A stretch of 64,000 bases of DNA, from contig NZ_WIXM01000003.1 of NCBI RefSeq assembly GCF_010993965.1, forward strand, positions 1 through 64,000. The letters are read 5' to 3'. Position numbers and translations under genes: made by a program. A model generated the notes under the pieces. The model searched no databases. It was not told where the DNA came from and worked only from the letters and a program-made list of their open reading frames with translations. This document shows, in pieces, positions 8,953-24,758 of this stretch (position 1 is its first letter; every line of letters begins with the position of its first letter). Source of the DNA: Gracilibacillus sp. YIM 98692 (GTDB lineage Bacteria; Bacillota; Bacilli; Bacillales; Amphibacillaceae).

Positions 8953-9023
8953 TAGCACACTGAGAAGTTTCACTAACCATCAGTGGAGGACGAGAAAACT
9001 TCACTGATGGAAGTCTCTCTTTA
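8953..9023. repeat. R3 hairpin repeat
   Basis: CCATCAGTG and CACTGATGG form a perfect 9-bp inverted repeat around gaggacgagaaaactt, followed by gaagtctctctttat. Related copies are at 26433-26490, 35100-35149 and 39228-39414. No coding content is visible. Confidence 0.6.
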
Positions 9024-9046
9024 TATTAACATAATAACGAATACAA

Positions 9047-9079
9047 ATACCACAGCACCTTAACGACACTGTGGTATTT
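9047..9079 (-). terminator. Terminator of the CuA-type lipoprotein gene
   Basis: AATACCACAG and CTGTGGTATT pair perfectly around a 13-nt loop, 14 bp after the lipoprotein stop codon. The T-tract on the minus strand is weak (ATTTGTATT). Confidence 0.6.
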
Positions 9080-9092
9080 ACCATTCTAACGA

Positions 9093-9482
9093 TTATTGAA
9101 CAATGAGAGTAGATACCATTTCACTGTGGCCTGTCCCACATTGAATGGAACATCTTATCGTATATTCACCAGGTTCAAGCACACCAGTTGCAGACCCTTC
9201 TCCATCCACTGCAATATCAGTACCTACGACTTCAATGCCATGAAAACCTTCTTCGTTAGTTAATTCTACTGTTACTTCTCCAGCTGGCACCGTATACTCC
9301 TCTTGATCAAATTGCCAATTCGATGCGGTTAGATGAACCACTGATTCATCACCTGCTGCACTTTCGTTATTTTCTTCTGTGTTCTCTCCATTATTACCTT
9401 CTGAATTATCTGCTTCGCCTCCACATGCTGCTAAAACAAAAGCAAGTGTTAAAAGCACTAAGATGAACATAAACTTTTTCAC
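9093..9482 (-). CDS. Lipoprotein with a CuA-type cupredoxin domain
   Basis: The 129-residue protein has a lipoprotein signal ending LAAC (Cys20), an acidic Asn/Glu-rich linker (21-47) and a cupredoxin domain. All CuA ligands of cytochrome oxidase subunit II are present: His81, Cys111, Cys115, His119 and Met122 (RCSIQCGTGHSEM). There are no subunit II transmembrane helices and no oxidase subunit I gene nearby. It probably sits on the outer face of the membrane as an electron carrier, copper chaperone or nitric-oxide reductase type subunit. The start is GTG behind AAAGGAG. Confidence 0.82.
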   Translation of the reverse strand: MKKFMFILVLLTLAFVLAACGGEADNSEGNNGENTEENNESAAGDESVVHLTASNWQFDQEEYTVPAGEVTVELTNEEGFHGIEVVGTDIAVDGEGSATGVLEPGEYTIRCSIQCGTGHSEMVSTLIVQ

Positions 9483-9596
9483 TTAAATTTCTCCTTTCCG
9501 TTCCCATAATTGAAATATATATGTATTATAACCCTTCTGCGATCGACTCTTCTAGTGCCAGTATCATTCTTCACAAAATATACAAAAATTAACCAA

Positions 9597-10184
9597 TTAC
9601 GATGAAAACCACAAATATTTATAGTAAGCTGGAAATTCCCTTATTGTTGAATAGACATCACGCCATTCTAAAAAATCTGCATGGGCTCCATAAACCTGTT
9701 CAAAACCTGCTTCTTTAAAAGCTAATTTAGATCTTGTTATATGAAAATGCTGTGTTATCACCGTTACCTTTGTCGTTTCAAGACTCATTTCCAAATATTT
9801 CAAGAAAGATCTCGCATTTTGAGCTGTTTGCATCGTGTTATAACCATTTTGATCAACCAAAATAACTTCTGCTGGAATAGCATGGTCCACAAGGTACTCT
9901 TTCATCACTTTCGCTTCATCATAACCTTCGACTCCTACCCCTCCACTCACTATTACTTGATCTAAAAGTCCACGTTGATGAAACTCCACTGCTTTATCAA
10001 GCCTAGCCTGTAAACGTTCTGATGGAGAACCATCTTCCATCACTTTATTACCAAGGACAACCCCTATATGAGATTCCTTTTCTTCATCATTCCATCCATC
10101 CCACAAGATATAGGCTGTATGTATCATGAACCAAAGAAAAAATAGAAGTAAAAACATTTTGATTACAGGAAATAAAGACTTCAT
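9597..10184 (-). CDS. YdcF/SanA-like DUF218 membrane protein
   Basis: The 195-residue protein has one N-terminal transmembrane segment followed by a DUF218 domain: GVVLGNKV, a conserved SERLQARLDKAVEF, VSGGVGVEGYDEA and NTMQTAQNARSFL. Family members such as SanA and YdcF are linked to envelope integrity, but the reaction is unknown. The start at 10184 is chosen because AAGGAGGAGG lies just upstream; the frame continues upstream to 10235 without a ribosome site. It is divergent from the nuclease gene. Confidence 0.75.
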   Translation of the reverse strand: MKSLFPVIKMFLLLFFLWFMIHTAYILWDGWNDEEKESHIGVVLGNKVMEDGSPSERLQARLDKAVEFHQRGLLDQVIVSGGVGVEGYDEAKVMKEYLVDHAIPAEVILVDQNGYNTMQTAQNARSFLKYLEMSLETTKVTVITQHFHITRSKLAFKEAGFEQVYGAHADFLEWRDVYSTIREFPAYYKYLWFSS

Positions 10185-10334
10185 CTGCACCCTCCTCCTT
10201 TCATTATGACTTGCCTTTCCTATTTCATCAATCATTTATCGGAGCATTCAGTCGTTTTTTCCTATTTTCAACCACCAATATGATATAGTAAAATATTCTT
10301 CTAACATATGTTTCTACAACAAGGGGATGACAGA

Positions 10335-11111
10335 ATGTTTCAAAAAAGTTCTTTATGGATTTGTTATTTCATTATAATGGTGTTGATTAGTGCGTGTGGA
10401 ACTGGATCACCATCAGTGGATGAAGAGAAACATCAAATAGAAGAAGATGTTCAACTAAATCAACAACCAGATCAGTCGGATGTCACAGATAACACGAATG
10501 CCTCTGAGAAAGCCCCGAATGCAATGGTAACAAGGATAGTAGATGGCGACACTGTCAAAGTACAATATCAGGGTGAGGAAGAAACGGTGAGGCTTTTATT
10601 AGTCGACACTCCGGAAACCAAACATCCTGACATGCCTATTCAACCATATGGACCAGAGGCTTCTAAATTTGCAGAAAAAACGTTAGCAGGTGAAGAAATC
10701 TATTTAGAATTTGATGGACCGAAAAGGGATCACTATGATAGATTACTGGCTTACATATGGATAAACGAGCAATTATTCAATCAAATGCTTTTAGAAGAAG
10801 GATTGGCTCGGTATGCTTATGTCTATGATCCACCTTATACCCATTCAGAAGAGTTGATGAAAGCTCAAAATCGAGCAAAGGATGCAGAAAAAGGAATATG
10901 GAGTATCAATGGTTATGTAACTGATGAAGGTTTCCAAGCAGAGCCTAACCAAAATGAAACACAAGACTCTACAGACCATTCCGAAGATGATGAAGTCTAT
11001 TATCAAAACTGTTCAGAAGCTCGTGATGCCGGTGTTACCCCACTTTACAAAGGTGATCCAGGCTATGGAACACACATGGATGGCGATGGAGACGGTGTGG
11101 CATGTGAATAA
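10335..11111 (+). CDS. Secreted lipoprotein nuclease: SNase domain plus excalibur domain
   Basis: The 258-residue product has a lipobox (LISAC), a disordered acidic linker, a staphylococcal-nuclease domain (VTRIVDGDTVKV, VRLLLVDTPET, FDGPKRDHYDRLLAYIW, EEGLARYAYVY) and a C-terminal excalibur motif with the DGDGDGVACE calcium-binding loop. The catalytic pattern Arg-Asp-Glu of SNases is present. It should degrade extracellular DNA or RNA with calcium, anchored to the outer membrane face. ATG at 10335 follows AAGGGG; the frame from 10308 has no ribosome site. Confidence 0.85.
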   Translation: MFQKSSLWICYFIIMVLISACGTGSPSVDEEKHQIEEDVQLNQQPDQSDVTDNTNASEKAPNAMVTRIVDGDTVKVQYQGEEETVRLLLVDTPETKHPDMPIQPYGPEASKFAEKTLAGEEIYLEFDGPKRDHYDRLLAYIWINEQLFNQMLLEEGLARYAYVYDPPYTHSEELMKAQNRAKDAEKGIWSINGYVTDEGFQAEPNQNETQDSTDHSEDDEVYYQNCSEARDAGVTPLYKGDPGYGTHMDGDGDGVACE

Positions 11112-11303
11112 ATTTATATAGCGGAAAGTAATGAACCTACTCAACAATCAGCCCAAAGTTACGCGCTTAGATACACTCACTTACTTTCACCAAATTTGCA
11201 CTACTTGTTAAAACCGGCTCTTTTTCTTGTTGTTTTATATACATTTTCTGAACTAGTAAAAGAGCTTCAAATAATAGCCTTACTAAAAACAGTGAGCTTA
11301 GAC

Positions 11304-11362
11304 CAGCGGAAGAAATAAACGGAGACTCCTGTGGGAAAGCGAAGTGTATTTCTGGAGCGGTA
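11304..11362 (+). repeat. R1 repeat fragment with an internal deletion
   Basis: Between 11112 and 11534 there is no gene. The only recognisable content is this shortened R1 copy (gcggaagaaataaac, ggagactcctgtggg, then directly gtatttctggagcgg), which lacks the middle of the full element, and the terminator at 11470-11510. Confidence 0.5.
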
Positions 11363-11469
11363 CCATAGTACTGATCTTAAAGCAGTAAGTGCTAAACTTG
11401 TTCTCATTTTATCCGCAGTGTATAGCTATTGAGATATTAGCCTGAAGCAAAGTTAGTTAACCTCATAAA

Positions 11470-11510
11470 AAAAGTTCCATTTTGCGCTGACTTCCCAAAA
11501 TGGAACTTTT
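11470..11510. terminator. Strong terminator of the catabolic operon
   Basis: AAAAGTTCCATTTTG and its exact reverse complement form a 15-bp stem around an 11-nt loop, with A residues on one side and T residues on the other, so it can work in both directions. It lies 25 bp after the aldehyde dehydrogenase stop codon. Confidence 0.85.
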
Positions 11511-11534
11511 AAAAATATTTACTTATTTTATCTT

Positions 11535-12980
11535 TTAGAATCTTTGATTTAGTTTAAAGCTCACTACCTTTTGTTCTGTCATGGCTTTGATCGAGGATTT
11601 GACACCTTCTCTTCCTAACCCCGATTGCTTCACCCCGCCAAACGGCATAGCATCAATACGATAATCACTGCTATCATTCACCATGATACCGCCGACTTCT
11701 AACTCCTGTATCGTTAAAAATGCATTCTCTACGTCTTTTGTAAATATTCCTGCTTGCAGTCCATAATCAGCAGCGTTGGATCGAGCAATCGCTTGATACA
11801 CATCCTCTACTGGATAGACAAGCACGACAGGGCCAAATATTTCTTCTTGGGCAATTACTGCATCAATAGGGACATCTGTTAAGATAGTAGGATAATAAAA
11901 GGCTTTTTCTCGTTTTCCACCAATTTGAATTTTTGCCCCTTCTGCTACCGCTTCATTCACCCAGGATTCTACCCTCTTCGCTTCTCGTTCATTAATCATT
12001 GGACCAACGTCTGTTAATTCATCTAATTTATCTCCCAATTGCAGTTTAGAAGTCCTCTGTTTATATAATTCTAGGAATTGACCATATACTTCTTTCTCTA
12101 CATAAACTCTCTGGACACCAATACAGTTTTGCCCTGCAACTGTAAAAGCACCAGAAACGCAAGATGCCACTGCTTCCTCAATATCTGCATCTTTTAACAC
12201 AATAACGGGAGAATTGGACCCGAGTTCCATACCGATCTTCTTGATTCCAGCTTTATGTGCTATTTTCTTTCCAACATCTACCCCACCCGTGAATGTAATC
12301 ATTTTAATGGTAGGGTGTGTAACGAGTACATCTCCCACATCTCTGCCTGATCCAGTCACAACAGACAACATGCCTGCAGGTAAGCCAGATTTTGTAAAAG
12401 CTTCTGCCAAAAGCAATGCACTCAACGGCGTATCAGAAGCTGGTTTAACAATAATCGCATTTCCAGAGGCAATCGCTGGACCAACCTTATGAGCTACTAA
12501 ATTTAAAGGATCATTAAAAGGGGTAATAGCTCCAATCACACCTACTGGAAAGCGATAATAATAACCAACTCTATTTTCTCCACTTTCACTTTGATCAAAA
12601 TTAATCGTTTCTCCATTTATCCTTCGCGCTTCTTCTGCGCTGATTTGAATCGTTTGTATCGCACGTTTCACTTCGCCACGAGCCTCATGAATCGTTTTAC
12701 TTCCTTCTAATGCTATCGTTTCTGCATAACGTTCTTTATTTTCCTCTATATAGGAGGCTACTCGTTGAAGCACAGCCATCCTCTCATGAGTTGGCCAAGG
12801 TTTGTTGCTTAGATAAGCCTCCTCTGCTTTTTCAATGGCCATCAACATATCATTTTCTGTAGCTAATGGTACTTTGGCAATTAGTCGATTATCTTGCGGA
12901 TCATATACATCAAATGTTTGCTCAGCAGCTATCCACTGTCCTGCAATCAACATTTTTTCCTGTTTAACTTGTAATTGCAT
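11535..12980 (-). CDS. NAD(P)-dependent aldehyde dehydrogenase, likely aspartate-semialdehyde type
   Basis: The 481-residue enzyme has the full ALDH fold: PFNDPLN (proline-rich cofactor site, about 154-160), TFTGGVDVGK (229-238), active-site base Glu252 (MELGSNSP) and nucleophile Cys286 (AGQNCIGVQR). It oxidises an aldehyde to an acid. It is the last gene of an operon after a homoserine dehydrogenase, so aspartate semialdehyde to aspartate is the likely step, as with DoeC in ectoine breakdown or in homoserine breakdown. This assignment rests on context. The ATG follows AGGGGGTGAT and lies 14 bp after the preceding gene. Confidence 0.85.
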   Translation of the reverse strand: MQLQVKQEKMLIAGQWIAAEQTFDVYDPQDNRLIAKVPLATENDMLMAIEKAEEAYLSNKPWPTHERMAVLQRVASYIEENKERYAETIALEGSKTIHEARGEVKRAIQTIQISAEEARRINGETINFDQSESGENRVGYYYRFPVGVIGAITPFNDPLNLVAHKVGPAIASGNAIIVKPASDTPLSALLLAEAFTKSGLPAGMLSVVTGSGRDVGDVLVTHPTIKMITFTGGVDVGKKIAHKAGIKKIGMELGSNSPVIVLKDADIEEAVASCVSGAFTVAGQNCIGVQRVYVEKEVYGQFLELYKQRTSKLQLGDKLDELTDVGPMINEREAKRVESWVNEAVAEGAKIQIGGKREKAFYYPTILTDVPIDAVIAQEEIFGPVVLVYPVEDVYQAIARSNAADYGLQAGIFTKDVENAFLTIQELEVGGIMVNDSSDYRIDAMPFGGVKQSGLGREGVKSSIKAMTEQKVVSFKLNQRF

Positions 12981-12994
12981 GGAATCACCCCCTA

Positions 12995-14050
12995 TTAAAG
13001 TTTGGTTAGGGCGTTTTGTCTATGATAATGAATGATATCAATAAATAGTGAGTAACCTGTTTCGATTAACCCTGCACCTGCACCTGTTAACATAATTGGA
13101 CCAGATAAATCACATTCGTAGACAATCGCATTTGTTGGACCATTAACACCAGCTAATGGATCGTTATCATCAACTAGCTCCGGCTTTACAGAAGCTTCGA
13201 TCGAACCATCTTCCCTTTTGGTTAAACGCGAGAGCAGACGCCATTTTTGATTTTTATCTAATGCTTTTTTCACCATCTCTAAAGTTAAATCGCTAATTCC
13301 TTTACAATAAATATCTTCTGATGCTATATTTTCACCCATTAAATATTTCGCTAAAATCGCTGTCTTGTATCTCGCATCATAACCTTCTACATCACTAGTT
13401 GGATCGGCTTCTGCATAGCCAAGGCTTTGCGCTTTTTCCAAAGCTTCCTGATATGTCTTGCCTTTTTCCATTTCTGTAATCATATAGTTAGTCGTCCCAT
13501 TTAGGATACCTTTTATTTCTGTTATTTCATTACCAGCTAGTGTCATAATAGGCAATCTGAGAGCTGGTGTACCGCTCATTACCGTCCCCTCAAATCCCCA
13601 GAAAACTCCATTTTTTTCTGCTAATGCTGATAATTCATCATAAGCTAAGGCAACAGGACCTTTATTGGTCGTCACTACACTCTTTTTATGTTCGAAAGCT
13701 GTTCGACAGTGCTCAATGGCTGGTTGACCTGTCTTCACATCGGTGAACGTTACCTCTACAATCATATCTGCGTTAGTCTTCTTGATTGTTTCCATACTAT
13801 CCCAGCCTCTAACCAGCCCCTTTTGATCTGGATAAGCATCTAACCCTCCAGAATCTCTAACGGCAGATAACAACTCTTCAATGTTTAAGCCATCTGGATG
13901 ATAAACGGATCCTTTCATAATATCAGAAACAGCGACAACCTCGGGCTCAAAACCATACGACGGCTTTTCACCTTTTTGTTGTTTTAAGAAAATCTCTGCC
14001 AATGCCTGCCCAACACCGCCGAACCCAACAAAAGCGACCTTCATAGTCAA
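12995..14050 (-). CDS. Homoserine dehydrogenase without ACT domain
   Basis: The protein of about 350 residues has an NAD(P)-binding GFGGVG near the start and the homoserine dehydrogenase motifs VTTNKGPVALAY, GTVMSGTP, ILNGTTNYMITEM and ADPTSDVEGYDARYK. It interconverts aspartate semialdehyde and homoserine. The regulatory ACT domain of biosynthetic Hom is absent, which fits a catabolic role in which homoserine is oxidised. The start is uncertain: TTG at 14050 lies 8 nt from GGAGG, while ATG at 14044 is 14 nt away and 14068 has no ribosome site. It is flanked by the PLP enzyme and the aldehyde dehydrogenase in one operon. Confidence 0.85.
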   Translation of the reverse strand: MTMKVAFVGFGGVGQALAEIFLKQQKGEKPSYGFEPEVVAVSDIMKGSVYHPDGLNIEELLSAVRDSGGLDAYPDQKGLVRGWDSMETIKKTNADMIVEVTFTDVKTGQPAIEHCRTAFEHKKSVVTTNKGPVALAYDELSALAEKNGVFWGFEGTVMSGTPALRLPIMTLAGNEITEIKGILNGTTNYMITEMEKGKTYQEALEKAQSLGYAEADPTSDVEGYDARYKTAILAKYLMGENIASEDIYCKGISDLTLEMVKKALDKNQKWRLLSRLTKREDGSIEASVKPELVDDNDPLAGVNGPTNAIVYECDLSGPIMLTGAGAGLIETGYSLFIDIIHYHRQNALTKL

Positions 14051-14136
14051 TCTCATCACCTCCAGCATTTTTAAAAAATAATGAGTGTCATTCGTTTTGG
14101 TTAAAAAGCATTCTTTTCATCAAATGTGTGCTTTAT

Positions 14137-15333
14137 TTAATTAACAAATAGACTTTCTGGCAAGGATTGAAAAGCTTGCTCTAAATCATGAATTAAGTCA
14201 TCCTTATCCTCAAGTCCTGCTGAATATCGAATTAACCCTTCTGGTATCCCCATTGCAGCTCTTTCTTCTGGTGTACATTCTACATGGCTTGTTGTGCGTG
14301 TAGGTCCTACAATGGTTTCAACAGAGCCAAGATGTGCTGCACGGTTCACATACTTTAGCTTTGGAAGCAGGTGTCTTAGTGTGTCCACTCCACCTTTTAC
14401 GGAGAAACTTAACATGTTTCCAAACCCGTTCATTTGTTTCTTAGCAATTTCATGACCTGGATGGTCCTCTAACCCTGGATAAAATACCGATTCAACTGCA
14501 TCAACTGATTTCAAATAGCGTGCAACTGTCATTGCATTTTCGCTTTGTTTTTCCATCCTTAATTGTAGTGTTTTCATCCCTCGTAATAATAAATAGGCTG
14601 ACATTGGATCAAGCGTTGCCCCATTAATTTCTCTATAATGATAAATACTTTCAACTAATTTTTTAGATCCACAAACAGAGCCACCTAATGCATCTGCATG
14701 CCCGCCTAAAAATTTCGTAGCACTATGAATTACTAAGTCTGCTCCTAACTCAAGCGGATTTTGGTTAATCGGAGTAGCGAATGTGTTATCAACAATGACA
14801 ATTGCCCCTGCTTTTTTTCCAGCTTTCGCCATTCGTTCAATATCTGTGATTTTTACCGTTGGGTTTGTCGGGCTTTCTAAATAAAGAACTTTACATCCTT
14901 TCGCTACCTCTTTTTCAATCGCTTCATGATCCCCCGTGTCACATAAAACCACTTCTACTTTTTGCTTTGGCAAAAATTCGGTAAATATTTTATTAGTCCC
15001 GCCATAGGTGTCTTTAATGGAAACAATTCGGTCACCAGGATATAACAGAGTTCCAAGTGTGTTACTAATCGCTGCCATTCCAGTGGAAAAGCTAGTAGCT
15101 GCTTCAGCTCCTTCTAAAATTCTAATTTTTTCTTCAAATGCATCAACTGTTGGATTGGTATTACGACCATAAATATGCCCTTCTTTATTACCGATTGCCA
15201 CTTCATACCATTCGTCCATATCATCATAGTTATAAGATACACTGTGTACAACTGGAACTTGAGTGGCTCCGAAAGCTAGTGAATCTTTTTCCCCTGCCCA
15301 TATCGCTTTTGTACCCATTTTTACATTTTTCAT
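14137..15333 (-). CDS. Cys/Met-metabolism PLP enzyme (gamma-lyase/gamma-synthase family)
   Basis: The 398-residue enzyme is a trans-sulfuration-type PLP protein: IYGRNTNPT (Tyr55, Arg57), SFSTGMAAI, DTYGGT (Tyr110), DNTFATP and the PLP lysine Lys207 in HSATKFLGGHAD. Such enzymes act on gamma-substituted amino acids, by elimination or replacement. It does not sit with methionine or cysteine genes but between a DoeA-like hydrolase and a homoserine dehydrogenase. Canavanine gamma-lyase, which releases homoserine, belongs to this family and has the same partners. The exact substrate cannot be read from sequence. The ATG follows GAGGAGGG. Confidence 0.85.
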   Translation of the reverse strand: MKNVKMGTKAIWAGEKDSLAFGATQVPVVHSVSYNYDDMDEWYEVAIGNKEGHIYGRNTNPTVDAFEEKIRILEGAEAATSFSTGMAAISNTLGTLLYPGDRIVSIKDTYGGTNKIFTEFLPKQKVEVVLCDTGDHEAIEKEVAKGCKVLYLESPTNPTVKITDIERMAKAGKKAGAIVIVDNTFATPINQNPLELGADLVIHSATKFLGGHADALGGSVCGSKKLVESIYHYREINGATLDPMSAYLLLRGMKTLQLRMEKQSENAMTVARYLKSVDAVESVFYPGLEDHPGHEIAKKQMNGFGNMLSFSVKGGVDTLRHLLPKLKYVNRAAHLGSVETIVGPTRTTSHVECTPEERAAMGIPEGLIRYSAGLEDKDDLIHDLEQAFQSLPESLFVN

Positions 15334-15375
15334 GCTAAGCCCTCCTCATCTATGTCAATCTAATAATCTTTATAA

Positions 15376-16584
15376 CTAGCTGATGATTCCGCCATGTTCT
15401 TGAAACGGAAAGGGATCTTGCACAATTAGATCTCTTGGGATTTTGGTGAACGTTTCACCGCCATATTTTGTTACTCGAAATGATTCACTGATCTCAATTC
15501 CATAGGCATCAAACCACAAGGCAGGAATAAGGTGAAAAGTCATGTTTGGTTGTAAAACGGTTGAATCCTCTGCTCGAATGCTTGCAGTATGCTCTCCCCA
15601 ATCTGGCGGGTAACCTAAACCTACGGAATATCCTAGTCTTGCCTCTTTTTCAATCCCATATTTTTTGAGACAGTTATACCAATACCTCTCTAGTTCTCCA
15701 CAAGTAATTCCAGGCCTTACCGCATCTAAAACGGTATTCAAACCTTCTACTACAATCGGAGCAATTTTCTGCAGCTGCTTTGAAGGTTCACCTATCGATA
15801 CCGTTCTAGCTACTGGCACATGATACCTCTTGTAACAGCCTGCTAGTTCGATGACAACAGACTCTCCTTCTTTAAATCTTCTCTCCGACCATGTTAGATG
15901 TGGTGCACCAGTATTATCTCCAGACGGAAGCAATGGAACAATAGATGGATAATCCCCTCCATAATCATCCGTACCTGAAATCATTTGGTGATATATCGCT
16001 GCTGCTGCATCACATTCTCTGTTTCCTACCCGTACATTTTCAACTCCTTTATACATTGCTTGATCAGCAATTTCCGCTGCCCGCTTCATATATTCAATTT
16101 CTTGCTCTGATTTGATAATCCTTACATAGTTCACTAATAAATCCGCATTTTTAAATGTAGCATTCGGAAGTCCGTGCTTTAACCTTTCATAAGCTTTAGC
16201 TGTGAAATAATAGTTATCCATCTCAACGCCAATTTTTCTATTTCCTTGCCCTATCTGTTTTAAAATTTCTGCAATGAAATCCATTGGGTGGTAAATCGAT
16301 GATTGGACATAATAATCTGGGAATGGAATAATATTTTCGTTGTAAATCCATGTGGTAATTTTCGCGCCATTTGCATCTTGATAACGACCAATCCAAATTG
16401 GCTGTGGCTCATCAATGATGATAATTAACATTTGGTGAACATAGAATGACCAAGCATCATAGCCTGATAAATAATTCATATTAGCGGGGTCTGTAACTAG
16501 CAACACTTCAATGCCGTTTTCGGCCATCCTCTGTTTCGTCTTCGTTAAACGTTTTTGATATTCTAAAATATCAAAGGCTAACAT
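15376..16584 (-). CDS. DoeA/EutD-like ectoine hydrolase (M24 creatinase/prolidase fold)
   Basis: The 402-residue protein has the M24 N-terminal creatinase domain and C-terminal pita-bread domain. Segments I associate with ectoine hydrolase DoeA/EutD are present: GYDAWSFYVHQ (41-51), GVEMDNYYF (119-127), PLLPSG with APHLTW (217-232), AGCYKRYH (248-255) and YPPDWGE (325-331). The metal ligands of true M24 peptidases are mostly lost: the two Asp are Glu246 and Pro257, the His is Tyr319 and one Glu is missing, while Glu366 remains. DoeA opens the ectoine ring to N-acetyl-diaminobutyrate. The partner deacetylase (doeB/eutE) is absent here, so another substrate is possible. It is the first gene of the operon. 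Confidence 0.75.
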   Translation of the reverse strand: MLAFDILEYQKRLTKTKQRMAENGIEVLLVTDPANMNYLSGYDAWSFYVHQMLIIIIDEPQPIWIGRYQDANGAKITTWIYNENIIPFPDYYVQSSIYHPMDFIAEILKQIGQGNRKIGVEMDNYYFTAKAYERLKHGLPNATFKNADLLVNYVRIIKSEQEIEYMKRAAEIADQAMYKGVENVRVGNRECDAAAAIYHQMISGTDDYGGDYPSIVPLLPSGDNTGAPHLTWSERRFKEGESVVIELAGCYKRYHVPVARTVSIGEPSKQLQKIAPIVVEGLNTVLDAVRPGITCGELERYWYNCLKKYGIEKEARLGYSVGLGYPPDWGEHTASIRAEDSTVLQPNMTFHLIPALWFDAYGIEISESFRVTKYGGETFTKIPRDLIVQDPFPFQEHGGIIS

Positions 16585-16620
16585 CGGATCCCCCCTCCCC
16601 CTAACAAATATTCCTTATAG

Positions 16621-16769
16621 AGGATGTTCAAAAAGTCCGGGAAATATCACTTGAACTTCTTCGTTGGCTTACTTCTTAAGTTCCTCATGCATCTATAAGC
16701 ATACATTCCAGTACTCGAAGCGCGCCCTTGAATTTCTTTGCGCTTTTTATCCTCCTTTTTGAACATTCA
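16621..16769. repeat. R4 intergenic repeat with terminal inverted repeats
   Basis: The element begins ggatgttcaaaaagtcc and ends cctcctttttgaacattc, so its ends are imperfect inverted repeats of each other. It has the look of a roughly 150-bp Bacillaceae palindromic repeat; I see no second copy in this window. It lies inside the predicted leader of the DoeA-like operon, between the promoter at 16832-16864 and the start codon. The rest of 16585-16979 holds only that promoter and a terminator. Confidence 0.5.
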
Positions 16770-16831
16770 CTTATAAAGTTTTATTTCTTACTTTTATCTT
16801 ATTAAACAGCGGTTTGAAATGTAATGTTCAG

Positions 16832-16864
16832 ATTGTATGAAGTTTTTCCTTTTCTGTCATACAA
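16832..16864 (-). promoter_or_regulatory. Promoter and operator-like palindrome of the DoeA-like operon
   Basis: On the minus strand ATGACA (16855-16860) and TACAAT (16832-16837) are separated by exactly 17 bp, a good sigma-A promoter. The inverted repeat TTGTATGA-N16-TCATACAA (16833-16840 and 16857-16864) overlaps both boxes, so a repressor or activator site is likely. The neighbouring PucR-type protein is the obvious candidate. The leader to the first gene would be about 240 nt. Confidence 0.6.
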
Positions 16865-16946
16865 CATGAATAAAGGCACAAACGCCCGTACATTCAGGCA
16901 TACAGGGTAATTTTTTACACAAATCATGTGTACTTTCATATAAAAA

Positions 16947-16972
16947 AATGCCCTATTATATAACAGGGCATT
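16947..16972 (-). terminator. Terminator of the PucR-type regulator gene
   Basis: AATGCCCT and AGGGCATT pair around a 10-nt loop just after the regulator stop codon, followed by a run of T residues on the minus strand. Confidence 0.8.
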
Positions 16973-16979
16973 GAACCTA

Positions 16980-18662
16980 TCATTTTATTTTATTCAACAT
17001 CCATAGACGGACACTTAACTCTAATAAAAAAGAATCATCAGCATCAATTAAGGATAAATGCGTCAGAGACTCTATTTTTCGTAGCCGATGCAATAACGAT
17101 TGACGATGTAAATTTAATTCCCTTGCTGTTTGGCTGACATTTCCTTTGTATTTATTGTACGTCATGAAAGTAAAAATAAGATCGGTCTGTCTCTTTTTAT
17201 CGTATTCTAACAATGGTTTCAATGTATCTTTTATAATCTCATGAATATTCTCTTCTTGAGATATTGCCATTAATAGCCGGTTAATTCTTGTATCACTATA
17301 AAAGGTTCTATTGCCAGGACCATTATGCTGCAGTCCGATTTCTAGAGCCGTCCTTGCTTCTTCATAGCTGTCATAAAAAGGATACGAACTTTCTTTTTGA
17401 AGTGCAATTCCCCAGGAGATATCAATATCAGCAAGTAACTGGCTTAACCGTCGTTCAATCGTATCTAAAAATTGGTTCGCTACATCATGATAGAAACGAT
17501 CCTCTACTTGCAGATAAAGAATGACTTCCCCTTTTTCAAAGGTAGTCATCGTTTTTCGTTCAAAAAGTCTACCTGCGTAAGTAATTTCCTTTTGAATATA
17601 ATAATTCAAGCTTCTTAACGATGAATGATAAGGGTTATCTAAAGTATCATGCTTATCTGATCCTAAATCTTTATCTCTAATATCTCCAACTATGCAAACA
17701 TAAGGAAGATTTAAATCATATCCCAATAATTGAGCTTTAGTTAATAATTGATGATCGACTCTCATTTTATTTTTAGCAAGGTTTAAAACAAAATTATCCT
17801 TAAGCCGTATCTCAGTTAACTCAATGGCATTCTCTTTTACAAAGTATAACGCACATGCCGTCAATGCATGTTCTAACACATTCATCACAAACCAAGTCAG
17901 TTCTTTATTATCTCGCGGCTGAAATACAATATATCCTTGCACTTTATGGTTGTTGAGGATTTTCAGCTGGAAAAAACGATCTTTATAGAATTTGTATTCC
18001 TTCATATGGTAATACAACGGATGCTCTTGAAATTTCATTTCAGATAGTGGTATCGGTTGTAAGTGACTTTCTTGGACTTCAAGACTATAACTTTCTAAAA
18101 TATCTTTGTTAAAAAACTTAAATGCTCTCAATCTCTTTTCAGAATCTGTGATGGCAACAGGAATTTTAATATGTTTATATAAAGTGTGTGCAATATCTTC
18201 TAGTCCTTTATCCTGCAGCACACAATTAATTAATTCTTGTCTGGCATCTTCTACTTTATTACGTTCCTTTTGTTTTACTTCTGTAATTTTATCCATCACA
18301 GATTGCCAAATATCCGTAAAACGAATTTCCCAAGGAACATCAATGATAATTAAATCATTTTCATCAGCCTTTTTCAAAATTCGATCAGGGATATCATAAA
18401 CATATCGTCCTGTGGCAAAACCTAAAACAGATGCTCCTGCTTGAATCACATCTTTAACAAAAGATTCCAATAAGTCTGGATTATCTTCGCATCCTATACC
18501 GGTACTTAAAACAAATTCATTCTTTCTGACAAAGTTTTCAACAGGAAGCTCCATAACCGAAACCCATTCAATCGTTTTTTGCTCTAGTAAATGCTTTCCT
18601 GCCTTCACTTCACAAGCTTTCATCACCGGCAATTGCATAATAGTACTTACCATCAAACCCAT
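16980..18662 (-). CDS. PucR/CdaR-type transcriptional regulator
   Basis: The 560-residue protein has an N-terminal PucR domain (TIMQLPVMKACEVKAGKHLL at the start, about residues 1-125), a central region, and a C-terminal PucR-type helix-turn-helix (YNKYKGNVSQTARELNLHRQ, continuing SLLHRLRKIE, near 510-540). Relatives activate or repress catabolism of purines, sugar acids, proline or GABA, usually from beside their targets. Here the target is probably the adjacent DoeA-like operon, which runs in the same direction downstream. The ATG at 18662 follows TGAGGTGA. A long inverted repeat upstream may be its own operator. Confidence 0.85.
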   Translation of the reverse strand: MGLMVSTIMQLPVMKACEVKAGKHLLEQKTIEWVSVMELPVENFVRKNEFVLSTGIGCEDNPDLLESFVKDVIQAGASVLGFATGRYVYDIPDRILKKADENDLIIIDVPWEIRFTDIWQSVMDKITEVKQKERNKVEDARQELINCVLQDKGLEDIAHTLYKHIKIPVAITDSEKRLRAFKFFNKDILESYSLEVQESHLQPIPLSEMKFQEHPLYYHMKEYKFYKDRFFQLKILNNHKVQGYIVFQPRDNKELTWFVMNVLEHALTACALYFVKENAIELTEIRLKDNFVLNLAKNKMRVDHQLLTKAQLLGYDLNLPYVCIVGDIRDKDLGSDKHDTLDNPYHSSLRSLNYYIQKEITYAGRLFERKTMTTFEKGEVILYLQVEDRFYHDVANQFLDTIERRLSQLLADIDISWGIALQKESSYPFYDSYEEARTALEIGLQHNGPGNRTFYSDTRINRLLMAISQEENIHEIIKDTLKPLLEYDKKRQTDLIFTFMTYNKYKGNVSQTARELNLHRQSLLHRLRKIESLTHLSLIDADDSFLLELSVRLWMLNKIK

Positions 18663-18736
18663 ACCACTCACCTCATTTTGCTACAAAAGTTCATGATCAT
18701 ATAAACATAAGGGGCTTTACATAACGCAGCATTTTT

Positions 18737-18779
18737 TTATACTATCAGAAAGTATAAATTATTATGGATGATAGTATAA
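18737..18779. promoter_or_regulatory. Long-spaced inverted repeat upstream of the PucR-type gene
   Basis: TTATACTATC (18737-18746) and GATAGTATAA (18770-18779) are perfect 10-bp inverted repeats separated by 23 bp, about 75 bp upstream of the regulator start codon. Autoregulation is a guess. I see no good TTGACA/TATAAT pair here. Confidence 0.4.
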
Positions 18780-18991
18780 GTAAAACTAAGGCTTTCGCCA
18801 TTAACACTTGTCGATAAGCCAAGTTTTTCTGTATGAAAAAAGCGATTAAAAGGAGAATTTCGTGATAATCGAGTTTGCAACATTTAAAGGATTTCTGTCG
18901 TTATGAGTTTTCAATTAAAAGAGGGAATAAAGAAGCAAATAATTTTCCAGTTATATCATTTTTACGCTTAAACACAGTACAATATGCCTTT

Positions 18992-19385
18992 TCATTCGTT
19001 ATGCAGCTCAGCTTTTAAAGTCTGGTAAATATCCTTCTTCACTTGTAAAAAGTCAGATGTTAACAACAAAGATTCTTCACGCGGCCGCTTAAAAGGAATC
19101 GTGAATTCATTGACAACATGAGCAGGATATAACTAATAGAATCTTTTCTGCCCTCTGTCTAATAAAACTTTCCCTTTTTTTGGTTGATACAAACCTCTAA
19201 TTTAGATGAAAAATGGTACTTTATCCACTGCCTAATGGATCTAGAAGGGAAACAAATTTACCTTCCTGTATACCTACTGTTATCACAAAAGGAACTGTGG
19301 GTGAGCTGGGGCAATTATCAGCACCATATCACGTTCACTGTTCAACTGACGTTAATAGGGGTTGTATTTTCCATGTAATGAAAAA
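18992..19385 (-). pseudogene. Decayed gene remnant, family not recognised
   Basis: On the minus strand three reading frames give protein-like pieces in consistent order: PTVPFVITVGIQEGKFVSLL (near 19300), then YQPKKGKVLLDRGQKRFY (near 19160), then YPAHVVNEFTIPFKRPRE and more up to a TGA at 18992. Stops and frameshifts separate them and there is no start or ribosome site. I do not know the family. Short plus-strand frames here (19184-19428) lack ribosome sites. The remaining 18672-18991 holds only the inverted repeat. Confidence 0.35.
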
Positions 19386-19450
19386 CTTGACTATCGGCCA
19401 AGCCTTATGGCGCAGTGCGGTAGCCTAGTTGCACTTATCTATATTCTTAC
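19380..19450 (-). repeat. R2 repeat, decayed copy
   Basis: This stretch keeps the order of the R2 element (aaaacttg, gccaagcctt, ggcgcagtgcgg, agttgcacttatctat) but the hairpin has diverged from the CTCGGC/GCCGAG form in the other three copies. It lies just downstream of the WrbA gene on the minus strand. Confidence 0.45.
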
Positions 19451-19459
19451 CTATACGGT

Positions 19460-19492
19460 AAAAAAAGGACCTTCCGATTGAAGATCCTTTTT
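19460..19492 (-). terminator. Terminator of the WrbA gene
   Basis: AAAAAGGATCTTC and an imperfect GGAAGGTCCTTTTTT arm form a hairpin ending in T residues, a few bases after the WrbA stop codon. Confidence 0.75.
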
Positions 19493-19497
19493 GGCGT

Positions 19498-20094
19498 TTA
19501 ACCATGTATTTTGTTGGCTATTTCTACGACACGCTTGGCTTGATGTTTAACTGACCCTTCAACATCTTCTACCATATTGCCTTCTTGATTTTGCGTAACA
19601 CTTGTGCCATAAGGGTTTCCACCAGAAGTAAAGATAGCATCATCTGTATATCCAGGTGCTACTACAATTGCCCCCCAGTGCATCATCGAGGTATATAAGC
19701 TTAAAATGGTTTGCTCTTGACCACCATTCGCATTTGTGGCAGATGACATGGCAGTTACTACTTTATTTACTGTCTTACCACTCATCCAAAGCCCGCCTTG
19801 TGAATCAATATATTGCTTCATTTGAGATGGTACATTTCCAAAACGAGTCGGTATACTAAAAATAATCGCATTAGCCCATTCAATATCATCAGATGTTGCT
19901 TCTGGAATGTGTTTCGTATCCTCTAAATGCTTTTCCCATGCTTGATTTGAAGCAACTGCTTCTTTAGGTGCTGTTTCCGCTGCTCTGACTAATCTCACCT
20001 CTGCTCCAGCATCTTTTGCAGCATCTGCTGCCCAATTAGCTAGTTGATAATTCGTTCCCGTTGAACTATAGTAAATAACCGCTACATTGACCAT
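19498..20094 (-). CDS. wrbA: WrbA-type NAD(P)H:quinone oxidoreductase (flavodoxin fold)
   Basis: The 198-residue protein has the flavodoxin start (AVIYYSSTGTNYQLANWAA, the FMN phosphate loop), FSIPTRFGNVPSQMKQYIDS and PGYTDDAIFTSGGNPYGTS, all typical of WrbA. It carries out two-electron reduction of quinones with NAD(P)H in the cytoplasm, protecting against redox stress. It is monocistronic, with AAAAAGGAGT before the ATG and its own terminator. Confidence 0.85.
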   Translation of the reverse strand: MVNVAVIYYSSTGTNYQLANWAADAAKDAGAEVRLVRAAETAPKEAVASNQAWEKHLEDTKHIPEATSDDIEWANAIIFSIPTRFGNVPSQMKQYIDSQGGLWMSGKTVNKVVTAMSSATNANGGQEQTILSLYTSMMHWGAIVVAPGYTDDAIFTSGGNPYGTSVTQNQEGNMVEDVEGSVKHQAKRVVEIANKIHG

Positions 20095-20191
20095 GATTCA
20101 GACTCCTTTTTCAGCAATTTTGTTACATCTCTAATCATTGCCCTTTTTTGGTTATTTTTATACGTCAACAGGAACTTAACCAATCAACATA

Positions 20192-21166
20192 TTAGGATGA
20201 AACGTCGATATACGTATTATAGCGAATCAAGTTTCCATCTTGGTAATAGTCAAACTCAATATCTGCTTTATCCCCTTCTAGTATTAGTTGTCCATCTGGT
20301 GCCATTAATGACATGGTTATCACCGATTGATAATTCGCTTCTCTTATTTTAGTGATAAGATCGTTTATTGTTTCTTTATCCTTCGATTCTTCTAATACTT
20401 CACCATCAATCACTATTTTCCATCCTTGATAATCCTGATCCGGTATGAATATATCAGAAGGGGTTGATGCTTGGAAAATTGGTAACGAACCTCCTTCATT
20501 TTGACATTCCGTCCATTGAAATTGTAAGGATTGATCCTCTGTTAAATAATATTCCATATGATCACAAGAAACTTGTCGCACATTTTCTGCAGTGCCATAG
20601 TTATCTTGGCGTGCGTCTACATAAATCTGATAAGCCCCCTCCCCATTATATTGGATATTATAAAAAATGGGATCTCCTTCCGTTGTATATCGTACTACTC
20701 TTAATTGTGTTTCTTCTTCCTTCTCTACCTTTTGCATAAATGATTCAAAGAAGATAGTATTTTGAATGCCACCATGCTCATCGATAACATCAAAATCTTC
20801 ATCAAGTTTGCGAGAAATGTCTTGAGCACTGCTTTGACCAGGATAAGATTCTGCCACTGCTCCATGCTTTACTGAAATCCTTTCTTTTTTAGTAAGCGAT
20901 TTTCGCAAATTGTCATCTATTTCATCCAAGCTAAAATACACGGCATTGCCTGCTTTTTGATTCATTTCTTCTGGTTCTAAATCTGAAAAACTCTCCTTCA
21001 ACCGATTTTCAGTTATTAAAACTCGATTCTCATCGATTTCCTCCACAAATCCAACCATATAGTTTGCTGATGGGTCATCATTACTAGCTCCACTATGTTT
21101 TTCATTATTCCCTGTACCACATGCTACAAGTAAAAATAACATGAACAGACTTACATAATATTTCAC
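20192..21166 (-). CDS. Lipoprotein with DUF3221-like and DUF4362-like domains
   Basis: The 324-residue protein has a lipobox (LLVACG) and a short polar linker. A DUF3221-like domain follows (YMVGFVEEIDENRVLITE, about 37-110), then a DUF4362-like domain (HGGIQN, VVRYTTEGDPIFYNI and DARQDNYG, about 135-225). A C-terminal part of about 90 residues is unassigned. Both domains occur singly in small Bacillus lipoproteins of unknown role; their fusion is unusual to me. The start is GTG behind AAGGGG. It is on the outer membrane face and seems to be transcribed alone. Confidence 0.65.
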   Translation of the reverse strand: MKYYVSLFMLFLLVACGTGNNEKHSGASNDDPSANYMVGFVEEIDENRVLITENRLKESFSDLEPEEMNQKAGNAVYFSLDEIDDNLRKSLTKKERISVKHGAVAESYPGQSSAQDISRKLDEDFDVIDEHGGIQNTIFFESFMQKVEKEEETQLRVVRYTTEGDPIFYNIQYNGEGAYQIYVDARQDNYGTAENVRQVSCDHMEYYLTEDQSLQFQWTECQNEGGSLPIFQASTPSDIFIPDQDYQGWKIVIDGEVLEESKDKETINDLITKIREANYQSVITMSLMAPDGQLILEGDKADIEFDYYQDGNLIRYNTYIDVSS

Positions 21167-21231
21167 TTTAATCCAACCCCTTATTTGTTATTTTGATTTA
21201 TTTGTCGCTCCATCATGAAAAAAGTTACCAA

Positions 21232-21355
21232 TAAAGAAAACTCGGCGAGTGCCGAGCCTTTAGGCGACAGCAGAGCCGTAGTTGCACTTATACTTCGCAC
21301 CTTAAAATTTTTGCTACGTCGAGTAACTTCCCTGCTAAAATTTTATACTTTCCTA
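21232..21355 (-). repeat. R2 repeat with terminator-like hairpin
   Basis: On the minus strand this roughly 120-nt element runs from AGGAAAGTATAAAATTTTAG through CAACTACGGCTCTGCTGTCG to the perfect hairpin CTCGGC-ACTC-GCCGAG (21241-21256) followed by TTTTCTTT. The shape is that of a small RNA or 3' end with an intrinsic terminator. Clear relatives lie at 32911-33031 and 53331-53400. It sits downstream of arsC. Confidence 0.65.
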
Positions 21356-21363
21356 AGAGTATA

Positions 21364-21402
21364 AAAAACAGAAGACAGCTACTTTCAAAAGTAACTGTCT
21401 TC
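21364..21402 (-). terminator. Terminator of the ars operon
   Basis: GAAGACAG and CTGTCTTC, with inner ACTT/AAGT pairing, form a hairpin just after the arsC stop codon, followed by a T-rich stretch on the minus strand. Confidence 0.75.
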
Positions 21403-21409
21403 CTAGTTA

Positions 21410-21829
21410 TTACTCTCCTGTTTGTGCAAAATGTTTAATTCTCTCTCCGATTTTATCACGCACACGCTGGAACACACTCCATTTTTCTTCGTCTGTTCCT
21501 TCTGCTTTTGCAGGATCATCAAATCCCCAATGTTCATTTCGAACGGTTGGCGGTATTACTGGACATTTATCTCTAGCATCACCGCACAATGTAACGACCA
21601 TATCGGCGTTATTTAAAATCTCTGTGTCAATTTTATCTGATGTTTGATTAGAGATATCAATATCTATTTCATTCATGGCTTTGACTGCATTTTGGTTTAA
21701 ACCATGCGTTTCTATTCCAGCACTGTAAACATTCCAATCTTCACCTAGATGATGTTTTGCCCACCCTTCAGCCATTTGACTTCGGCAAGAGTTTCCGGTG
21801 CATAAAAAGTAGATAGTTTTTTTCGTCAT
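21410..21829 (-). CDS. arsC: Thioredoxin-coupled arsenate reductase
   Basis: The 139-residue enzyme reduces arsenate to arsenite. It has the P-loop CTGNSCRS with nucleophile Cys10 and the redox pair in [10 protein letters not shown] (Cys82 and Cys89), as in B. subtilis and S. aureus ArsC of the low-molecular-weight phosphatase fold. It is the last gene of arsR-arsB-arsC, 15 bp after the efflux gene, with AAAGGAGAG as ribosome site. Confidence 0.93.
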
Positions 21830-21844
21830 TTTTTGTTCTCTCCT

Positions 21845-23146
21845 TTAATAATAAAGTAACAAGCTGATAAACAAGCCGACAAGTGTGATAAATAAAATAG
21901 GAATGGTGAGAATAATACCTGTTTTAAAATATGTTCCCCATGAAATTTTAACTCCTTTTTGTGCTAAGACATGGAGCCACAACAAGGTAGCCAATGAACC
22001 AATTGGTGTGATTTTCGGACCTAAGTCAGACCCGATCACATTAGCATAAATCAATGCTTCTCTTACCACTCCTGATGTATTTGTTTCGGCAATGGCTAAT
22101 GCATCTATCATCACAGTTGGCATGTTATTCATAATGGAAGATAAAATGGCGGCAATAAAGCCCATAAATATTGTTGCTGCAAATAAACCTTGATCTGCAC
22201 TCCATTGAATCAATTGAGCTAATACTGTCGTTAATCCTGCGTTTTTTAAACCATAAACAACTACGTACATCCCAATAGAGAAGAAGACAATCTCCCAAGG
22301 AGCTCCTTTCACAACAGATGTCGTGTTAACCACTGCACTATTTCTAGCCATGATTAAGAAAAAGATCGCAACAATACCTGCGATAATGGAAACAGGAACA
22401 GCTATAAATTCACTAGCAAAATATCCTATTAATAAAATAGCCAGTACATACCATGATAAATGAAACATTTTAAGATCTTTTATCGCTTCAGCTGGATTTT
22501 TCAACTGGGATAAATCATAAGTTTTCGGGATATTTTTTCTAAAGTACAAATAAAGCACAATGATAGTAGCTATGATAGAAAATAAGTTTGGAATAATCAT
22601 TCTAGAAGCATACTCTACAAAGCCAATTTCAAAAAAGTCAGCAGATACAATGTTCACTAAGTTACTCACAACAAAAGGTAATGAAGTCGTGTCCGCAATA
22701 AACCCGCTAGCCATAATAAACGGGAACACCATTTTCTCTTCAAAACGGAGATTTCTTACCATTGCTAAAACGATGGGCGTTAGAATGAGAGCTGCTCCAT
22801 CATTAGCGAAAAAGGCAGCAACTAGTGCTCCAAGTAAACTGATATACACAAACATTTTAATCCCATTGCCTTTGGCTATTCTTGCCATATGTAATGCGGC
22901 CCATTCAAAAAATCCAATTTCATCTAAAATTAAAGAAATTAGAATAATCGCAACAAATGCTAAGGTAGCATTCCAAACAATTCCGGTAACTTCCCATACA
23001 TCACTAAAGCCTACTACACCTACAAGAAGAGCTATGACAGCTCCACCACAAGCTGACCAGCCAATAGATAGGTCTTTTGGCTGCCAGATAACCAATATTA
23101 ACGTAACTAAAAAAATGAGTACTGCTAAAATCGATTCAAGCAACAT
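21845..23146 (-). CDS. arsB: Arsenite efflux transporter ArsB
   Basis: The 433-residue protein has about 11-12 transmembrane helices and the ArsB pattern: [47 protein letters not shown] and [19 protein letters not shown]. It exports As(III) and Sb(III), driven by the membrane potential. It follows arsR by 15 bp and precedes arsC, forming one operon. Confidence 0.92.
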
Positions 23147-23161
23147 AATTCCCCCCGCAAT

Positions 23162-23509
23162 TTAACAACACGTGATTCTTGTTCCTTTTTTCTCTAGTTC
23201 TTTTAATTTTTCTTCTTGACTAGGTAAATTTTCTAAGATAGAAGTAACGAACGGATACCATTCACTATCGTTATTTAATGAATAAAAAATCCATTGACTC
23301 CGGCGTTCTTCTCGAATCAGTCCTGCGTCTCGTAATTTACGAAGATGTTGGCTGATAGATGGTTGACTCATTTGAAAGATCTCCACAAATTCGCATACAC
23401 AACATGTCTGATTTTCCAACAACTTTACCATCGTTAACCTAGTTTTATCACCAAGCAGTTTTAATATGACAGCCGCTTTTTGCATATCAGGAACAGTCTG
23501 TACAGACAT
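23162..23509 (-). CDS. arsR: ArsR-family arsenic-responsive repressor
   Basis: The 115-residue winged-helix repressor carries the metalloid motif CCVCEFVE in the alpha-3 region and the DNA-recognition helix SQPSISQHLRKLRDAGLI; two further Cys close the C-terminus. As(III) binding releases it from the operator. ATG at 23509 follows GAGGGGGATATTTT; the upstream extension to 23551 would run through the operator and lacks a ribosome site. Confidence 0.92.
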   Translation of the reverse strand: MSVQTVPDMQKAAVILKLLGDKTRLTMVKLLENQTCCVCEFVEIFQMSQPSISQHLRKLRDAGLIREERRSQWIFYSLNNDSEWYPFVTSILENLPSQEEKLKELEKKGTRITCC

Positions 23510-23541
23510 AAAATATCCCCCTCTCAATATCCATGTATAAC

Positions 23542-23563
23542 TATATAACAATTTACTTATATA
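23542..23563. promoter_or_regulatory. Probable ArsR operator
   Basis: TATATAA-N8-TTATATA is a perfect inverted repeat 33 bp upstream of the arsR start codon, in the promoter region. AT-rich dyads of this type are usual ArsR-family operators. Confidence 0.55.
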
Positions 23564-23571
23564 ATCAACAA

Positions 23572-23603
23572 AAAAACACTAGCTTTGCTTAGCTAGTGTT
23601 TTT
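23572..23603 (-). terminator. Terminator of the zinc-binding lipoprotein gene
   Basis: AAAAACACTAGCT and AGCTAGTGTTTTT pair around a 6-nt loop directly after the stop codon; T residues follow on the minus strand. It separates this gene from the ars promoter. Confidence 0.8.
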
Positions 23604-23607
23604 AAGA

Positions 23608-24723: not shown

Positions 24724-24758
24724 CCCATTTCCCCCTATTTCATATATGTATATCTTTA

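Follow-up and report, generated by a model that had tools for sequence, protein, structure and literature searches.

Five adjoining minus-strand genes at 18671-11535 of a 64,000-nucleotide stretch from Gracilibacillus sp. YIM 98692 (contig NZ_WIXM01000003.1, positions 1 to 64,000; called the window) encode a PucR-type regulator, an M24 protein resembling the ectoine hydrolase DoeA, a Cys/Met-family pyridoxal phosphate (PLP) enzyme, named PLPg here, a homoserine dehydrogenase (HSD) and an aldehyde dehydrogenase (ALDH). From the genes present, their conservation, the pattern in which they replace others and the phylogeny, it is fairly probable that they form an ectoine-catabolic operon in which PLPg and HSD jointly take the place of the 2,4-diaminobutyrate (DABA) transaminase DoeD. 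Coordinates and Pfam families agreed with an earlier note on this DNA, which had placed a four-enzyme minus-strand set plus PucR here, and the note's catabolic operon with a DoeA-like first enzyme, a PLP enzyme of the gamma-family and a tail likely running from homoserine via aspartate semialdehyde to aspartate was borne out as well.

16980 to 18671, minus strand: PucR-family transcriptional regulator, presumed to be ectoine-responsive (Pfam PucR, GGDEF_2, HTH_30)
15376 to 16584, minus strand: DoeA/EutD-like putative ectoine hydrolase with M24 fold (Pfam Peptidase_M24 and Creatinase_N)
14137 to 15333, minus strand: PLPg, gamma-family PLP enzyme, proposed to convert 2,4-diaminobutyrate to homoserine and ammonia (Cys_Met_Meta_PP, PRK08249)
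12995 to 14068, minus strand: HSD without ACT domain, proposed to convert homoserine to aspartate semialdehyde (Homoserine_dh)
11535 to 12980, minus strand: ALDH, proposed aspartate-semialdehyde dehydrogenase in the role of DoeC (Aldedh)

Judging from homology, DoeA would open ectoine to N-acetyl-2,4-diaminobutyrate. This would be deacetylated to DABA, probably by an M20 amidohydrolase in the majority of relatives and by DoeB in Klebsiella. PLPg would expel the gamma-amino group and add water to give homoserine and ammonia. As their families and company suggest, HSD and ALDH would then carry out two oxidations, from homoserine to aspartate semialdehyde and on to aspartate. PucR presumably turns the operon on with an ectoine-derived signal.

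Companions of DoeA and PLPg in related genomes

The gene neighbourhoods were approached from both enzymes. When 101 genomes were searched with DoeA, strong matches turned up at 46 places in 43 genomes, and a further 45 loci were mapped. PLPg was scored when a gene at most eight positions away encoded a protein whose identity to the window enzyme was 60% or more; paralogues with 35% (L071) and 42% (L062) were left out of this count, and neither EctB (L031-L034) nor a second class-III type (L052, L054, L058) was counted as the pathway aminotransferase. Among the 46 DoeA loci, 28 had PLPg, 13 had a class-III aminotransferase, none had both and five had neither. HSD was present in 21 of the 28 loci with PLPg, in none of the 13 with an aminotransferase and in none of the five with neither, and an M20 gene was found in 17/28 and 8/13 loci of the first two classes. 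Representatives, from which the gene identities were taken, revealed two types of cluster: type A with DoeA, a GabT-like class-III aminotransferase and a different ALDH, often together with RidA, M20 and EutB homologues, and type B, that of the window, with PucR, DoeA, PLPg, often an M20 amidohydrolase, HSD and ALDH, in some cases with EutB and EutC homologues. The window-type ALDH accompanies PLPg and HSD (21 loci) or the aminotransferase (three loci: L046, L057, L060) and, therefore, the same last enzyme appears to be fed by either. Since PLPg and the aminotransferase are mutually exclusive and HSD follows PLPg alone, PLPg and HSD probably substitute for the DoeD transaminase; the simplest reading is that they carry out the conversion of DoeD via homoserine, provided that the aminotransferase acts like DoeD.

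For the reverse approach, named genomes were scanned with PLPg alone and the best 80 of 345 candidates, all from Bacillota, were labelled with simple longest-ORF gene calls and BLAST (at least 45% identity, same strand, six genes upstream to eight genes downstream). DoeA was found near PLPg in all 80 loci, in 79 of them one or two genes upstream and in one four genes downstream. HSD and ALDH were each present in 71 loci, neither without the other, and the other companions were PucR (59 loci), M20 (59), EutC (38) and EutB (22); a class-III aminotransferase on the same strand was not found in any of the 80. Because DoeA is present in 80/80 and HSD plus ALDH in 71/80 loci, the gene order, which the earlier note had proposed to look for in relatives, is conserved far beyond chance. 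Among 299 genomes of the order, 83 contained PLPg and DoeA, four PLPg only, two DoeA only and 210 neither; in total, PLPg occurred in 87 and DoeA in 85 genomes, and 85 of 90 PLPg copies were located at most 6 kb from DoeA. Fisher's test gave p = 3e-66 for this co-occurrence, a value that comes from related genomes and hence is not a phylogenetic test. Both DoeA-only genomes (G035, G053) carry aminotransferase-type clusters. PLPg is 94-95% identical in three named Gracilibacillus relatives. Of 299 genomes sampled across the phylum, only two had PRK08249, one of them being that of the window; the other (L191) has homologues of EutC, PLPg, M20, HSD, ALDH and PucR at a contig start.

Gene context makes ectoine a well supported substrate of this cluster type. 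The best solved relative of the window DoeA is the ectoine hydrolase 6twk, with approximately 45% identity, and in an alignment of 19 DoeA sequences including 6twk and the Klebsiella protein 94 positions are invariant, a count over all residues, catalytic or not. On Klebsiella plasmids, a PLPg with 62-63% identity is encoded directly after doeA-doeB, in the place of doeD. Divergent from doeA-doeB-PLPg are ehuBCDA and a EutB-like gene (402.9 bits, cut-off 413), and the regulator between the two arms scores 568.5 with the EhuR ectoine-utilisation model and so exceeds its cut-off of 480; DoeA and DoeB of Klebsiella are above the cut-offs of their own models. A gene annotated as ornithine cyclodeaminase and cut at the edge of L163 is a candidate EutC, an ALDH gene of the same locus lies in a separate gene group beyond an IS5 copy, and neither doeC nor doeD is annotated in the two Klebsiella stretches read. 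The doeA-doeB-PLPg stretch matched 36 plasmid records, 28 of them over at least 80% of its length, and gave no megablast match in 5,426 E. coli genomes. As a side observation, plasmids from clinical as well as environmental Klebsiella carry a cluster for import and degradation of ectoine (L156, L163), and both of these records are typed IncFIB.

A plasmid of Priestia megaterium has the order PucR, EutB, PdxS, M24, cyclodeaminase, PLPg, M20, HSD, ALDH and ProP. Its pdxS, a gene of PLP synthesis, stands between eutB and the DoeA gene (L157:5549-6433), as if it supplied the PLP cofactor. In four of the five operon-bearing Gracilibacillus genomes (G002, G008, G014, G016) the ectoine synthase gene ectC is located approximately 5 kb from DoeA, and EctA and EctB, both above cut-off, are encoded beside the operon in L031 (G002); the genome of the window has its ectC and the operon on separate contigs. 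Hydroxyectoine use by this genus was rejected, as no EutC-type match at 1e-40 was found in the five operon-bearing Gracilibacillus, while four of the 15 genomes searched did match.

Family of PLPg, homoserine link and alternative readings

PLPg scored 736.6 bits against PRK08249 (NF006097) and thereby passed the cut-off of 600, and it stayed under the cut-offs of all other models among the best 25 of 52, including methionine gamma-lyase with 393.3 versus 549.7. Residues Y55, R57, Y110, D182 and K207, which we take to serve PLP binding and Schiff base formation, are invariant across the 11 family members aligned. H232, E235 and G343-P344 are specific to the PRK08249 clade and predicted to line the pocket. 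The PRK08249 sequences form a single clade with a support of 100/100 in IQ-TREE, and FastTree agrees; the outgroups were MetB, MetC, MccB, one solved and one annotated methionine gamma-lyase, three paralogues from the window's genome and a Mesorhizobium enzyme linked to HSD, and IQ-TREE warned of long branches among these outgroup enzymes. PLPg is thus separate from the ordinary cystathionine synthases and lyases, among which the earlier note had sought the refuting outcome.

The window HSD passes PRK06270 (419.3 bits, cut-off 373), and no ACT domain was found in it by a Pfam scan. A longer HSD frame (425-464 amino acids, 32-36% identical) is present in all eight genomes examined; since these include all six that have an operon-type HSD, the operon HSD is an extra copy. 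For the window ALDH, no NCBIfam model among those listed passes its own cut-off. An adjoining pair of genes on plasmid pRL8 of Rhizobium johnstonii, near a homoserine kinase, resembles those of the window HSD (46% identity) and ALDH (45%). The pRL8 HSD is, judged from its position, likely pRL80071, the orthologue of an R. leguminosarum plasmid HSD whose type is described as strongly unidirectional toward homoserine oxidation, with a homoserine catabolic cluster cited as close by (PMC10228743). Homoserine as a putative intermediate is supported by the family of PLPg, its company and the replacement pattern.

An alternative is that PLPg acts as a transaminase that makes aspartate semialdehyde directly, with HSD and ALDH as alternative outlets of the ectoine route. 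It is suggested by the published label 'atf' for evidently the same gene in the order eutD-eutC-atf-abgB-thrA-adh (PMC13188858), but PLPg belongs to Cys_Met_Meta_PP/PRK08249 and not to class III, and an outlet role would not predict that HSD accompanies PLPg and never the class-III aminotransferase; we regard this alternative as rather improbable. Canavanine utilisation, with PLPg as canavanine gamma-lyase and the DoeA-like M24 protein as an accessory hydrolase, draws on the homoserine chemistry of the lyase (PMC10018355) and on a Mesorhizobium plasmid that carries the same trio of Cys/Met-family PLP enzyme, HSD and ALDH. However, the Mesorhizobium PLP enzyme is only 34% identical to PLPg, scores 284 against the PRK08249 cut-off of 600 and falls far outside the PLPg clade, and PLPg is tightly linked to DoeA, EutB/EutC, ehu and ect genes, which leaves canavanine hardly any probability. 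Canavanine as main substrate was rejected, being unsupported by gene context and by the tree, in which the Mesorhizobium enzyme represents the canavanine type, and no guanidine riboswitch reached threshold in an Rfam scan of 9000-22000; where the earlier note had left canavanine, ectoine or another gamma-substituted amino acid as candidates, ectoine is now strongly favoured by context.

Several points weigh against the replacement of DoeD by PLPg and HSD in ectoine catabolism. The related genomes are non-independent samples for all counts given above, and the open-access literature searched gave no account of homoserine formation from diaminobutyrate by a PLP enzyme, so that the key reaction is without precedent there. 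The window DoeA reaches 496.7 bits against TIGR02993, below the curated cut-off of 613, which is passed by none of the 299 genomes of the order and by the Klebsiella DoeA at 758. EutB or EutC was commoner at aminotransferase loci (8/13) than at PLPg loci (5/28) of the DoeA-side set. The PRK08249 subfamily is not confined to ectoine, because five PLPg copies stand away from any DoeA gene, four in genomes devoid of DoeA and one in a genome with an additional DoeA-linked copy. HSD and ALDH are missing from 9/80 PLPg loci, from 7/28 in the DoeA-side set and beside the Klebsiella PLPg. This absence would fit a PLPg that resembles methionine gamma-lyase and forms 2-oxobutyrate and two ammonia, with HSD and ALDH serving another compound, and the nearest solved structures are indeed methionine gamma-lyases. 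Where five solved methionine gamma-lyases carry C, K and D (presumably C116, K240 and D241 in their numbering), PLPg has G112, R234 and E235, although an annotated megL of Paracoccus also deviates at these positions. Given the 71 of 80 loci that do have HSD and ALDH, we consider a methionine-lyase-like activity very unlikely.

The deacetylation step also weighs on this side. The M20 amidohydrolase of the 59 related loci is absent from the window operon and from the operon-bearing Gracilibacillus loci; the five operon-bearing genomes contain only M20 enzymes with 36-40% identity, which are also present in two operon-less species; G037, the positive in this search, matched at 54%. DoeB is not encoded in the operon, and a search for it, run without a positive control, gave no match in eight genomes. 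A hidden deacetylase was rejected as a candidate, because the seven Gracilibacillus examined, five with the operon and two lacking it, gave just M20 enzymes of 36-40% and the DoeB search, which had no positive control, was empty. This gap would fit a route in which PLPg acts on a gamma-acetylated DoeA product and releases acetamide and homoserine, so that no deacetylase would be needed in Gracilibacillus and other genera lacking M20. In addition, 18 of the 71 loci with PLPg and HSD, among them three Gracilibacillus loci, have no M20 on the same strand with at least 45% identity, and DoeA of Halomonas elongata expressed in E. coli gave alpha- and gamma-ADABA at 2:1, according to a review (PMC5924519). 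If true, DoeA, PLPg and one dehydrogenase would replace the set of hydrolase, deacetylase and transaminase. Against the shortcut, a deacetylase-like gene stands near PLPg in most relatives, namely M20 in the 59 loci and DoeB in Klebsiella, and two of the 18 loci (L089, L129) encode an M20 enzyme with 38-39% identity close by on the opposite strand. An acetamidase of the FmdA/AmdA type, the only amidase type covered by the test, does not track the operon (2/5 operon-bearing and 4/9 operon-less Gracilibacillus, 2/4 other genera), and was rejected as a marker of acetamide release. In sum, we hold the acetylated substrate to be unlikely and diaminobutyrate, from family and context, to be the most likely substrate of PLPg; in Gracilibacillus, either a general deacetylase serves or PLPg takes the acetylated compound. 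The earlier note had pointed to a missing transaminase and a missing deacetylase: the former is apparently replaced by PLPg and HSD, and the latter would be supplied by M20 in most relatives, with none in the window operon.

The five PLPg copies without DoeA form one clade nested in the ectoine-linked tree. In two of these genomes (G534, G624) divergent GntR, PLPg, HSD, ALDH and permease genes are found without DoeA, and the permease, tested in L193, has the S-methylmethionine permease model as its best match (665 bits against a cut-off of 716). The PLPg-HSD-ALDH-permease genes at L193:8742-14073 and L196:8429-13754 may be an operon splitting S-methylmethionine to dimethyl sulfide and homoserine; we infer that the same chemistry would apply, which fits a homoserine-forming enzyme with an altered leaving group. 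In the other three (G516, G541, G589) a lone PLPg follows seemingly acetoin-type dehydrogenase genes, of which the families were tested in L194 and the others have a similar layout. In Priestia megaterium, a second PLPg copy may be located on the chromosome (G516).

Regulator, doeA leader and neighbouring genes

The pucR gene starts with GTG at 18671; an in-frame ATG at 18662 corresponds to the coordinate in the earlier note. The four enzyme genes are separated by gaps of 42, 68 and 14 bases. Further features were found at the 3' end of pucR and upstream of doeA:

16972-16947, minus strand: terminator-like hairpin 3' of pucR, an 11-pair stem followed by a T-run
16833 to 16864, minus strand: candidate PucR operator, palindrome TTGTATGA-N16-TCATACAA upstream of doeA, with a predicted function
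16608 to 16775, minus strand: dispersed structured repeat within the doeA leader, with TGTTCAAAAAG/CTTTTTGAACA ends

Because of the hairpin, pucR may be transcribed separately from the enzyme genes; six terminator-like sites were counted in 10 kb where 6.5 were expected from shuffled sequences, which makes the hairpin weak evidence. The core TGTATGA-N16/17-TCATACA was present upstream of DoeA in five of the 81 upstream regions scanned, those of the window, L076, L077 and L081 (Gracilibacillus) and L098 (Alkalicoccus). The leader repeat, a structured element of approximately 150 bases within this 168-base stretch, is flanked by TATAA on both sides; it is not at the equivalent place in L076 and L077, and diverged copies are found elsewhere in four other Gracilibacillus genomes. 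By this distribution it probably stands outside the ectoine system. The repeat resembles a small mobile element and could influence expression of the doeA operon. A riboswitch in the doeA leader was rejected: the structured 168-base leader is the dispersed repeat, and an Rfam scan of 9000-22000 gave no element at threshold, guanidine riboswitches included.

Arsenic-resistance-like genes are located on the minus strand at 21410-24786, comprising an ArsR-type HTH protein (23162-23551), an ArsB pump (21845-23146) and an LMWPc-fold protein that reads as arsC-like (21410-21829), with the gene of a ZnuA-type zinc-binding protein upstream (23608-24786).

Comparison with known systems

The canavanine cluster of Rhizobiales and Pseudomonas has a gamma-type PLP enzyme feeding HSD and ALDH (PMC10018355), and HSD and ALDH are likewise downstream in the window, but the Mesorhizobium PLP enzyme is not orthologous to PLPg and no DoeA is found there. 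We infer that this Mesorhizobium cluster is of the canavanine type. Among four annotated HSD-linked plasmid loci, only that of Mesorhizobium has a Cys/Met-family PLP enzyme; R. hidalgonense has a class-V enzyme, and none is annotated nearby in Agrobacterium and Streptomyces. Since the Mesorhizobium enzyme is outside the PRK08249 clade, the architecture of PLP enzyme, HSD and ALDH appears to be assembled with different PLP enzymes. The homoserine cluster of pRL8 (R. leguminosarum / R. johnstonii) shares the HSD and ALDH pair with the window, but there the homoserine is thought to be of extracellular origin, a homoserine kinase is present, the PLP gene encodes a class-V enzyme and the stretch read contains neither DoeA nor PRK08249. 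If the proposed homoserine route is right, it points to a general rule, that homoserine-releasing PLP enzymes pair with an HSD lacking ACT and an ALDH, whatever the leaving group.

The canonical doeABCD and eutABCDE-ssd-atf clusters of Halomonas and Ruegeria also begin with a DoeA-type hydrolase; they end with a dehydrogenase to aspartate, the role proposed for the window ALDH, so that the end product would be shared. Unlike them, the window operon is devoid of DoeB, a class-III DoeD and an EnuR-type regulator, and PLPg and HSD would stand in for DoeD. If true, aspartate can be reached from DABA in ectoine catabolism by a second route. This could explain a possible ectoine use by Gram-positive bacteria that lack the expected genes, and would fill seemingly missing steps in halophilic Bacillaceae. 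In a 2023 survey of Aquibacillus and kin, doeA was present in all genomes studied and doeB in two strains only, and ectoine was judged to be mainly an osmolyte and not a nutrient in the new isolates (PMC10203224); in the Aquibacillus loci analysed here, PLPg, M20, HSD and ALDH follow doeA.

The earlier note's remark that the unit is not described in Bacillaceae is outdated: a Bacillota cluster, pucR-eutBCD-atf-abgB-thrA-adh, was reported in 2026 as putative ectoine catabolism, and in the sections read of that paper abgB, thrA and adh are assigned to enzyme families without a place in the route (PMC13188858). With PucR, EutD/DoeA, a PLP gene, an amidohydrolase, HSD and ALDH it is evidently of the same type, and 'atf' is evidently PLPg, because it occupies the position of PLPg in the 38 EutC-bearing loci. 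The differences are that the window operon has no eutB, eutC and abgB and that the PLP gene was called atf with no homoserine route proposed; in the open-access literature searched and the sections read of PMC13188858, a homoserine step of ectoine catabolism was not found. What is new is the claim that the 'atf' gene would encode a gamma-family enzyme which, together with HSD, forms a homoserine bypass of the transaminase; if true, this also gives a role to the HSD that lacked a place in the pathway of the 2026 Bacillota clusters.

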